From Proteiniphilum sp. (GTDB lineage Bacteria; Bacteroidota; Bacteroidia; Bacteroidales; Dysgonomonadaceae), in contig WOYT01000104.1 in the NCBI GenBank assembly GCA_011620695.1, forward strand, positions 1-46,890: a DNA stretch of 46,890 nucleotides, in the 5' to 3' direction. Below are positions 34,036 to 41,128 of this stretch, one piece after another. Every line of letters begins with the position of its first letter. Positions within the stretch are counted from its first letter, which is position 1. The notes under the pieces are model-generated. The model worked only from the letters and a program-made list of their open reading frames with translations, did not search any database and was not told where the DNA came from. The translations under genes were made by a program, and so were the position numbers.

Positions 34036-34752
34036 TCAGAGGTTGAGGTAGAAATCGCGAACCAGCGCTGCAAACTCAGGTGTATAGTGATGACGCGACT
34101 CCTCAATCAACAGTTGGGTCTCCTCCAGCATCCCTTCACTCCGTGAAAGCTCAACCAGTACCCTGCGAACAGGTTTTCCTGGTGCAGGCACCACACGCGT
34201 CAGCCTTCGCAGGCAGAAAGAGCGTGATTCCGACATCTGCAGCAGTTCAGGCAACCTGTCAGCAGGCAAGATCAGTGCCAGTCGGCCCTCCGGTGAGAGG
34301 CAACGGTCCGCCCCGTGCAAAAGATCATCGAGCGAAAGACTGACGGAATGTCGGGCATGTGCCCTGGCCGCATCGGGAGGAAGAAGGGAACGGGAGAAGA
34401 AAGGGGGATTGGAGACGATCAGATCGTAAAGATCAGTACTGACAGCAGCAAACTGCTGAAAGGAAGAAACCTCAACGGCGATCCGGTCGTGGAAAGGAGA
34501 TGCTTCCACGTTCTCAACTGCCTGCCGGCAGCACTCACGGTCGATATCGATGGCCGTGATTACGGCCCGTGGGCAGCGCTGCGCCATCATCAGGGCTATT
34601 AACCCCGAACCGGTGCCCACGTCCAATATATGGATACCATGATCTACCGATGCCCAGGCACCGAGAAGCACCCCATCAGTACCCACTTTCATGGCACACC
34701 TGTCATGATAAATGGTAAACTGCTTGAAACGGAAAGAGGAATTTGACATCAT
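34036..34752 (-). CDS. tRNA1(Val) (adenine(37)-N6)-methyltransferase-like (TrmN6/YfiC)
   Basis: FRFKQFTIYHDRCAMKVGTDGVLLGAW, DVGTGSGLIALM, IVSNPPFF. Confidence 0.9.
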   Translation of the reverse strand: MMSNSSFRFKQFTIYHDRCAMKVGTDGVLLGAWASVDHGIHILDVGTGSGLIALMMAQRCPRAVITAIDIDRECCRQAVENVEASPFHDRIAVEVSSFQQFAAVSTDLYDLIVSNPPFFSRSLLPPDAARAHARHSVSLSLDDLLHGADRCLSPEGRLALILPADRLPELLQMSESRSFCLRRLTRVVPAPGKPVRRVLVELSRSEGMLEETQLLIEESRHHYTPEFAALVRDFYLNL

Positions 34753-38384: not shown

Positions 38385-38903
38385 TCATTCCGAATAGTAA
38401 CGGAAATCTTTCAGCATCTCCTGTAGTCGCTTGCGGGCAAAGAAGATCCGACTCTTCACCGTACCGATGGGCAGCTCCAGGTGACGGGCAATCTCCTCAT
38501 ACTTGAAGCCGGAGACATGCATCGAAAATGGCACCTTGTATTCATCGGTGAAGCTGTTGATCGCCTTGTTGATCTCTTTGATGGTGTAGGCACCATCAGG
38601 GGTATCAAAGCCGGAGTCCTGCGGCATGTTCAGATGATAGAGGTTTTCTGTTTTATCAATGATGGTCTGACTTCTCACAATCTTGCGGTAGTTGTTGACA
38701 AAGATATTGTGCATGATGGTGAAGACCCAGCCCTTGAAATTGACATTTTCGTAATATTTCTCCCTGTTGTCCAAAACCCGGAGCGTCGTCTCCTGCAACA
38801 GATCCTTCGCTTCTTCCCGGTCGGCAGTCAGTGTCAGTGCAAAATTGAACATGTTGTCCTGCAAACTCAACAGCTGTTTCTCGAAAGATTTTTTTGTCTT
38901 CAT
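38385..38903 (-). CDS. ECF-type RNA polymerase sigma factor
   Basis: 172 aa; FNFALTLTADREEAKDLLQETTLRVL (region 2), YEEIARHLELPIGTVKSRIFFARKRLQEML (region 4). Confidence 0.95.
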   Translation of the reverse strand: MKTKKSFEKQLLSLQDNMFNFALTLTADREEAKDLLQETTLRVLDNREKYYENVNFKGWVFTIMHNIFVNNYRKIVRSQTIIDKTENLYHLNMPQDSGFDTPDGAYTIKEINKAINSFTDEYKVPFSMHVSGFKYEEIARHLELPIGTVKSRIFFARKRLQEMLKDFRYYSE

Positions 38904-38944: not shown

Positions 38945-38952
38945 CAAATATA
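38945..38952 (-). promoter_or_regulatory. Candidate -7 box TATATTTG (with GTTG 18 bp upstream) for the ECF sigma gene
   Basis: TAnnTTTG match on the minus strand, 42 bp upstream of ATG. Confidence 0.5.
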
Positions 38953-39175
38953 AAAAATTATATTCAATTCCAACCCTGTTTGTTGAACGAAAAACGATTA
39001 ATGATTGTTAATAGCAGGCTGATCCACCACATCTCACTGATATTCAGTATTTTTATGATCCAGTTAGCGGCGATACAGCAGTTCTATAAATGATAAATAG
39101 TATCAATCAAATTGTTTGTTGGATAAAAAGCAGCGATTCACCCATCCTTGGGCAGCGTCTTTTTTTTGAGATCCA

Positions 39176-39190
39176 TGGCACACTATTTGC
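39176..39190 (+). promoter_or_regulatory. Sigma-54 (RpoN) type -24/-12 promoter upstream of htpG
   Basis: TGGCACA-CTAT-TTGC matching TGGCACR-N4-TTGC; 42 bp from ATG. Confidence 0.6.
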
Positions 39191-39232
39191 AATTTCATCA
39201 GAGCAGAAATAACCCTATTAAAAAATAAATAT

Positions 39233-41128
39233 ATGGTACAAAAAGGACAGATCGGTGTCACCACCGACAACATCTTCCCCGTCATCAAGAAATTTCTCTA
39301 CAGTGATCATGAGATCTTTCTGCGCGAAATCGTTTCCAATGCAGTAGATGCCACACAGAAGCTCAAGACCCTCGCCGATGTGGGCGAGTTCAAGGGTGAG
39401 CTGGGTGATCTCTCGATACGGGTCTCTGTCGATAAGAAGAAAAAGACCATCACTGTCTCAGACCGGGGTATTGGAATGACGGCCGATGAGCTGGACAAAT
39501 ATATCAACCAGATTGCGCTCTCCTCGGCCAACGACTTCCTGGACCGTTACAAGGAGAACAAAAACGCCATCATCGGCCACTTCGGACTGGGCTTCTACTC
39601 CACCTTCATGGTTGCAAAGAGAGTGGAGATCATCACCAAATCGTACAATGAGGAAGCCACTGCCGTCAAATGGTCGTGCGATGGCACCCCTGAGTACACC
39701 TTAGAGGAGACGACAAAGGCAGATCGCGGCACTGACATCATCCTCCACATCGACGATGAGAACAAGGAGTTCCTGGAGAAAGAGAAGATTGAGTCGCTGC
39801 TGAAGAAGTACTGCAAGTTCCTGCCGGTGCCGGTGGTGTTTGGCAAGAAGCAGGAGTGGAAGGATGGCAAGTATGTGGACACGGAGGAAGACAACGTGGT
39901 GAACGAGGTGAACCCTCTCTGGAAGCAGAAACCGGCGGGGCTCAAAGATGAGGATTACCTTCAGTTCTACCACACCCTTTACCCCATGTCGTTCGGCGAT
40001 GAGCCGCTCTTCTGGATCCACCTGAACGTGGATTACCCGTTTCACCTGACTGGTATCCTCTACTTCCCCAGGATCAAGAGCAACCTTGACCTGCAGCGCA
40101 ACAAGATACAGCTCTATAGCAACCAGGTCTATGTGACTGACTCGGTAGAGGGGATCGTACCGGAATTCCTCACGCTGCTGCATGGGGTGATTGACTCGCC
40201 CGACATTCCGCTGAACGTCTCACGCTCCTACCTGCAAAGCGATCAGAACGTGAAGAAGATCTCCAACCACATCACCAAGAAGGTTGCCGACAAGCTGGAG
40301 GAGCTCTTCAAGAAAGAGCGTTCCCAGTTCGAGGAGAAATGGGATAGCCTGAAGCTCTTCATCGAATATGGGATGCTCTCAGAGGATAAGTTCTACGATC
40401 GCGCTGTCAAGTTCGCGCTGGTGAAGAACAGTGAACAGAAATTCTTCACCCTGGAGGAGTACAAAGAGCTGACCAAAGGGTCCCAGACCGACAAGCAGGG
40501 CGACCTGATCTGGCTATATGCCAGCGACCTGCAGGAACAATATTCCTCCATCGAAGCTGCGCGGGAGAAAGGATATGATGTCCTGCTGATGAACGGACAG
40601 CTGGATGTTCACTGGATGGGTCTGCTGGAGCAGAAACTGGAGAAGACTCGTTTCGTGCGGGTTGACAGCGACATCATTGAACATATCATCGAGAAAGATG
40701 AAAGGAGCGCGCTGGAGCTAAGCGAGAAACAGAAAGAGTCCCTCACCGAGGTGGTGAAAGCGCAACTACCGGTCATCGAGAAGAGCGAGTTCAGTGTCGA
40801 TTTCAAGGCACTGGGTGAAAACTCAAAGCCGGTGCAGATCACACAGAACGAGTTTTCACGCCGGATGAAAGAGATGGCTGCCATGCAGCAGCAGATGGCT
40901 TTCTACGGGGAGATGCCAGATAGCTACCAACTGGTACTCAACGCCGATCACCCCTATATCAAAGAGTTAATCACCCAAAGTGAATCCAAAGAGAAAGAGG
41001 AGCTGATGGCATCAGTCACGGCAGATGCAAAGCTCAAACAGATGATAGATCTGGCATTGCTGGCAGGAGGCCTCTTGAAAGGTGAGGCATTGAACAACTT
41101 TGTAAAGCGTAGCTTTGAGATGATCTGA
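39233..41128 (+). CDS. htpG: Molecular chaperone HtpG (Hsp90)
   Basis: IKKFLYSDHEIFLREIVSNAVDATQKL, DRGIGMT, IGHFGLGFYSTFMVA. Confidence 0.97.
   Translation: MVQKGQIGVTTDNIFPVIKKFLYSDHEIFLREIVSNAVDATQKLKTLADVGEFKGELGDLSIRVSVDKKKKTITVSDRGIGMTADELDKYINQIALSSANDFLDRYKENKNAIIGHFGLGFYSTFMVAKRVEIITKSYNEEATAVKWSCDGTPEYTLEETTKADRGTDIILHIDDENKEFLEKEKIESLLKKYCKFLPVPVVFGKKQEWKDGKYVDTEEDNVVNEVNPLWKQKPAGLKDEDYLQFYHTLYPMSFGDEPLFWIHLNVDYPFHLTGILYFPRIKSNLDLQRNKIQLYSNQVYVTDSVEGIVPEFLTLLHGVIDSPDIPLNVSRSYLQSDQNVKKISNHITKKVADKLEELFKKERSQFEEKWDSLKLFIEYGMLSEDKFYDRAVKFALVKNSEQKFFTLEEYKELTKGSQTDKQGDLIWLYASDLQEQYSSIEAAREKGYDVLLMNGQLDVHWMGLLEQKLEKTRFVRVDSDIIEHIIEKDERSALELSEKQKESLTEVVKAQLPVIEKSEFSVDFKALGENSKPVQITQNEFSRRMKEMAAMQQQMAFYGEMPDSYQLVLNADHPYIKELITQSESKEKEELMASVTADAKLKQMIDLALLAGGLLKGEALNNFVKRSFEMI

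Follow-up and report, generated by a model that had tools for sequence, protein, structure and literature searches.

A sigma-54 promoter in front of htpG

We consider it highly probable that TGGCACACTATTTGC, at positions 39176-39190 (+ strand) of the window (the whole 46,890-nucleotide stretch of DNA analysed here), serves htpG as its sigma-54 core promoter, that this promoter belongs to a regulon found throughout the Bacteroidales, and that the likeliest activator is a bacterial enhancer-binding ATPase (bEBP) encoded beside lptE and acting through a TGWCA-N3-TGWCA dyad. In the mechanism that we propose, sigma-54 RNA polymerase would bind the -24/-12 element of htpG as a closed complex, and transcription would start at about 39201 only once a bEBP had remodelled that complex. 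An ancient, sensor-less bEBP linked to lptE and secG would most likely activate the regulon, most likely by binding the dyad, which most regulon members carry upstream, always on the same face of the helix.

The gene downstream of the element (39233..41128, + strand) encodes an HtpG (Hsp90) protein of 631 aa, which scores 652 bits against NCBIfam NF003555 (cut-off 371) and also matches Pfam HSP90. A preliminary description of this DNA had placed a consensus sigma-54 promoter 42 nt upstream of the htpG ATG at 39233, with canonical -24/-12 spacing, and its sequence, position, spacing and distance all proved exact. The GG (39177-39178) and the GC (39189-39190) are 10 bp apart on the + strand, and the TGGCAC/TTGC context around them matches exactly. 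Counted from the -12 position, the geometry predicts a transcription start at 39201-39202, and the 5′ untranslated region would be the A-rich stretch at 39201..39232 (+ strand).

When the 329-bp intergenic region was shuffled with dinucleotides preserved, 9 of 5000 shuffles matched TGGCACG-N4-TTGCA at 11 or more of 12 positions on either strand. Matches to the consensus are common in the window as a whole, with 56 observed at up to two mismatches compared to 46 expected (no clear excess), and one of the nine exact TGGCAC-N5-TTGC matches in the 1.76-Mb source genome falls within a coding gene of the window (34266-34280). The consensus alone is therefore weak evidence, and these counts are what would speak for TGGCACACTATTTGC as a chance match to a degenerate motif. 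This reading is countered by the way in which the element is conserved, column by column, among leaders that have diverged, by the matched control that the divergent gene offers and by the recurrence of the element at other chaperone genes, as described below. We regard the probability of a chance match as negligible, and leader conservation together with the matched control rules it out.

Conservation in orthologous leaders

We compared 80 htpG loci from other species, comprising 45 leaders from the Dysgonamonadaceae and 35 mainly from the Tannerellaceae, and counted a site as conserved when it scored at least 9 of 12. The Dysgonamonadaceae leaders reached this score in 42 of 45 cases (shuffles: mean 1.9, maximum 5), with the consensus TGGCAYACTATTTGCA. 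An alignment of these leaders anchored at the motif gave an average of 1.59 bits per column over the 16 motif positions compared to 0.25 in the flanks, and the element stands as an isolated conserved block in leaders that have otherwise diverged. In the mainly Tannerellaceae set, 22 of 35 leaders reached the score (shuffled mean 1.6), mostly as TGGCATTTnTTTTGT. The conservation of both dinucleotides that had been expected held within the family; in the order at large the GG is near-invariant, as is the G of the -12 element, whereas the C, kept in most Dysgonamonadaceae, is often replaced by A or T (GA, GT) elsewhere in the Bacteroidales. In the leader comparison, two loci (L047 and L057) had no sigma-54 site close to the htpG ATG, and the site of a third (L043) was decayed. 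At three other loci (L100, L161 and L164) the DNA directly 5′ of htpG reads like the 3′ part of a Clp-type ATPase gene and carries no sigma-54 site, so htpG may follow that gene in an operon at these loci.

The divergent gene as a matched control

The intergenic region is shared with a divergently transcribed gene (38385..38903, - strand) for an ECF-type sigma factor of 172 aa with Pfam domains Sigma70_r2 and r4_2, an arrangement kept in about 38 relatives. In the window this gene has a housekeeping -7 box of the TAnnTTTG type, TATATTTG (38945..38952, - strand), with which the sigma-54 site can be contrasted inside one intergenic region. Among 38 divergent pairs, the ECF side had TAnnTTTG in all 38 and a sigma-54 score of at least 9 in none. 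On the htpG side, 36 of the 38 had a sigma-54 score of at least 9, four had TAnnTTTG and none had the full housekeeping pair. These opposite patterns exclude base composition or a general likeness to promoters as the cause.

The preliminary description had seen no housekeeping pair (TTTG-N19-21-TAnnTTTG) in the htpG leader, and this holds on the htpG strand of the window. One could still suppose that most htpG transcription comes from a housekeeping promoter that escaped notice, with the sigma-54 site as a secondary start used only under stress: Hsp90 often has basal expression, and nine of the 80 leaders hold a TAnnTTTG somewhere within their last 160 bp. We think this very unlikely, given that the pair occurs in none of the 80 htpG leaders, that TAnnTTTG alone is absent from the htpG-strand leader of the window, and that the standard box for the divergent gene is present in the same intergenic region in 38 of 38 pairs.

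Two textbook systems of heat-shock control were also considered. Their target genes are the same as those described here. However, the window has no match to the CIRCE inverted repeat at up to three mismatches (the best in the htpG leader is 11 of 18) and no match to the sigma-32 core TTGAAA-N11-17-CCCCAT, searched as the exact core; unlike the RpoH and HrcA/CIRCE systems, it has sigma-54 sites instead. On these searches of the window, control of htpG by HrcA/CIRCE or sigma-32 was rejected, and the earlier proposal that sigma-54 takes their place is supported. Taken together, these sequence comparisons argue that 39176-39190 is in all probability a genuine and strongly conserved sigma-54 promoter of htpG, confirming the observation made in the preliminary description and supporting its interpretation.

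A scan of the genome for the sigma-54 machinery, as that description had suggested, found rpoN on contig C134, with all three sigma-54 domains (AID, CBD and DBD) and a TIGR02395 score of 418 bits. It also found two proteins with strong matches to the sigma-54 activator domain; the genome is 78% complete, so further bEBPs may be missing from the assembly. Among 198 sampled Bacteroidales genomes, 192 (97%) had an rpoN match. In the six others the htpG motif mostly persists; they still have the bEBP described below, and we therefore read them as incomplete assemblies with missing contigs, which makes a comparison based on rpoN loss uninformative.

A chaperone regulon

The stricter pattern TGGCAYNNNNTTTGC (TGGCAY-N4-TTTGC) has four matches in the 1.76-Mb genome, and as a negative control the reversed pattern has none. 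Three of the four precede htpG, hsp20 and rsfS-ftsH, and the fourth looks intragenic. Since one or two chance matches are expected by simple base counting, the argument lies in where these sites fall and not in how many there are. The hsp20 site is on contig C7 (5684-5698, - strand), and the rsfS-ftsH site (C67:24522) precedes the gene pair, which puts a ribosome silencing factor together with a membrane protease behind one chaperone-type promoter. The same genome has sigma-54-type sites at groES (TGGCACAGATTTCGC), grpE (TGGCAAACTATTTGC) and clpB (TGGCAAAGATTTTGA), so that htpG, hsp20, rsfS-ftsH, groES, grpE and clpB all carry them. In nearly every relative examined, groES, dnaK, grpE and clpB have sigma-54 sites; dnaK of the source genome is truncated at the start of its contig and its sites are known from the relatives, and the distances from site to start at grpE are approximate because its start codons were assigned mechanically. 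The spacer within the site is largely gene-specific and is kept across the family. Taken together, these results suggest that htpG probably belongs to a Bacteroidales-wide sigma-54 regulon for protein quality control that would include htpG, groESL, dnaK, grpE, clpB, hsp20 and rsfS-ftsH.

A dyad on a fixed helical face

TGWCA half-sites are frequent upstream of the sigma-54 sites, and among all spacings between pairs of them a spacing of 3 bp stands out. The resulting TGWCA-N3-TGWCA dyad was found in 17 of 20 groES, 14 of 21 dnaK, 14 of 21 clpB and 21 of 30 htpG leaders of the mainly Tannerellaceae set, compared to 0.2-0.3 in shuffles. Its density per 110 bp is 0.67-1.05 in these groups compared to 0.018 in bulk DNA of the loci. 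Counted from the T of TGG, the dyad starts cluster near -25, -35, -46, -56, -67, -77 and -88; on a scale that puts the C of GC at -12, the midpoint of the closest class falls at about -45. The phasing has a period of 10.5 bp and a mean resultant length R of 0.83 (46 unique dyads beyond -30), a value not attained in any of 5000 random placements. Relatedness makes the sequences dependent on one another, and nominal p values for these dyad statistics therefore come out too small, but the same phase recurs across genes and families. In the source genome, two perfect TGTCA-N3-TGTCA dyads lie upstream of the hsp20 site, at -46 and -98, and both keep this phase.

The htpG leader of the window itself contains no TGWCA-N3-TGWCA dyad within two mismatches, and in the Dysgonamonadaceae a dyad at up to one mismatch lies within 110 bp in only 4 of 41 htpG leaders. 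A k-mer search of the htpG leaders of this family found no single dominant element, and no clear dyad was seen upstream of rsfS-ftsH. The nearest relative (L040) does have an in-phase dyad, CTGTCATTGCGACAC, at -24 of htpG, and Dysgonomonas species also have one in phase, which makes loss or decay of the dyad in the clade of the window plausible. Activation of htpG in the window would thus use a degenerate, a different or a more distant site.

The candidate activator

One of the two bEBPs (C67:49331-50605) consists of an AAA+ domain and a Fis-type helix-turn-helix (HTH), has no sensor domain, and is followed by lptE and secG. An orthologue is present in all 35 genomes tested, with the best match at 56-100% identity compared to less than 50% for other bEBPs, and in most loci lptE lies 3′ of it, as judged by likeness to a Pfam-confirmed LptE. 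An alignment of 17 orthologues shows invariant residues in the AAA+ domain and an almost invariant recognition helix (ISERTLYRKIKEY), and the linker between the AAA+ domain and the HTH is poorly conserved save for a segment resembling EREILYQVLFDMKKD. In three genomes (G036, G082 and G182) of 99% completeness this is the only bEBP detected, and their chaperone genes carry sigma-54-type sites. The presence of this bEBP in 35 of 35 genomes, its status as the sole bEBP in these three, and the proximity of a bEBP-lptE pair to groES-groEL in Flavobacterium psychrophilum (see below) lead us to infer that the lptE-linked bEBP probably activates the chaperone regulon; heat or protein misfolding may be the signal.

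The second bEBP is an NtrC-type response regulator (contig C52; 10394-11956 of locus L149, - strand) with a receiver domain, and its gene adjoins that of a likely kinase. The promoter could be real and yet answer to another bEBP such as this one, with the dyad belonging to an unrelated regulator. This alternative draws on the presence of a receiver-domain bEBP beside a likely kinase in the same genome and on the missing dyad at the htpG of the window, and we hold it to be possible but rather unlikely. The three genomes in which chaperone sigma-54 sites coexist with the lptE-linked bEBP alone speak against it, as does the helical phasing of the dyad with the -24 element, which is expected if the bound protein contacts the polymerase complex. 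In addition, GSFTTA replaces the GAFTGA loop in the second bEBP, a change that may alter or impair its contact with sigma-54.

The lptE-linked bEBP, our preferred activator, resembles PspF, whose activity a separate protein restrains, in consisting of an AAA+ domain and an HTH and in lacking a sensor domain at its N terminus. The candidate is not a PspF orthologue (272 bits compared to an NCBIfam cut-off of 444), its linker between the AAA+ domain and the HTH is longer, and its proposed targets are cytosolic chaperones. On balance we lean towards a broader model, in which the heat-shock response of the Bacteroidales would be run by sigma-54 and this single, near-universal, sensor-less bEBP beside lptE-secG. 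The protein would bind the dyad either unusually close to the promoter (centre at about -45) or at least one helical turn further up on the same face, and its activity would be governed through the linker or by another protein, possibly free chaperones.

Relation to known systems

Sigma-54-type promoters of chaperone genes, htpG included, are already known from F. psychrophilum, where the accessible text of one study reports promoters of the sigma-54-type class SM4, with mapped transcription start sites, at htpG, groES-groEL, dnaK, grpE-dnaJ, clpB and lon (PMC9723704). The same source places a sigma-54-dependent regulator, THC0290_0733, next to lptE (0732), with groES-groEL at 0729 and 0728. 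The promoters of htpG and other chaperone genes there are of the same -24/-12 type as here, in a different class of the phylum, and the portions of PMC9723704 available to us assign neither an activator nor an activator site; relative to that portion, the present analysis adds conservation throughout the order, a dyad in helical phase and, by elimination, a candidate for the activator. According to a second study, heat-shock genes are enriched among predicted sigma-54 targets in the Bacteroidota, as is HSP90 (COG0326) in the Bacteroidia; it and cites GrpE and GroES of B. thetaiotaomicron (PMC12316311). It is a statistical PSSM survey, and its accessible part gives no leader-by-leader footprint and names no enhancer or activator. 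The order-wide phased TGWCA-N3-TGWCA dyad and the candidate activator were not found in the searchable literature.

The Bacteroidota are a dominant phylum of gut and digester communities, and the searchable literature says little about their means of controlling chaperones when the textbook heat-shock systems are lacking. Our data point to sigma-54, usually viewed as a factor for specialised functions, as a general regulator of chaperones, and such a role would explain why 97% of the searched Bacteroidales genomes had an rpoN match. Both the proposed activator and its proposed binding site are concrete enough to be tested.

Other conserved features of the intergenic region

Conservation is higher in the ECF sigma factor (97-99% identity in near relatives) than in HtpG of those relatives (80-90%). 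Its gene adjoins htpG in about 38 Dysgonamonadaceae loci and was not found there in the five loci of the mainly Tannerellaceae set that were checked; its best NCBIfam model is sigma_PG0214, below the cut-off. In the part of the intergenic region nearer to the ECF gene, the block ACGATTAATGATTGTTAAT (38993-39012) is strongly conserved in three relatives (L040, L041 and L042) and may take part in regulating that gene. Further towards htpG, the leaders of L040, L041, L042, L044 and L048 share with the window a TATCAAT-type block, GATAAATAGTATCAAT (39092..39107, strand unassigned). This block is not a TGWCA dyad, and among the relatives compared only the nearest share it, with no enrichment across the Dysgonamonadaceae; it is a candidate activator or DNA-bending site. 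In two other loci (L049 and L051), AAATAGTAT upstream and ATACTATTT within the sigma-54 site form an inverted repeat, of which 7 bp remain in the window (39092-39107).
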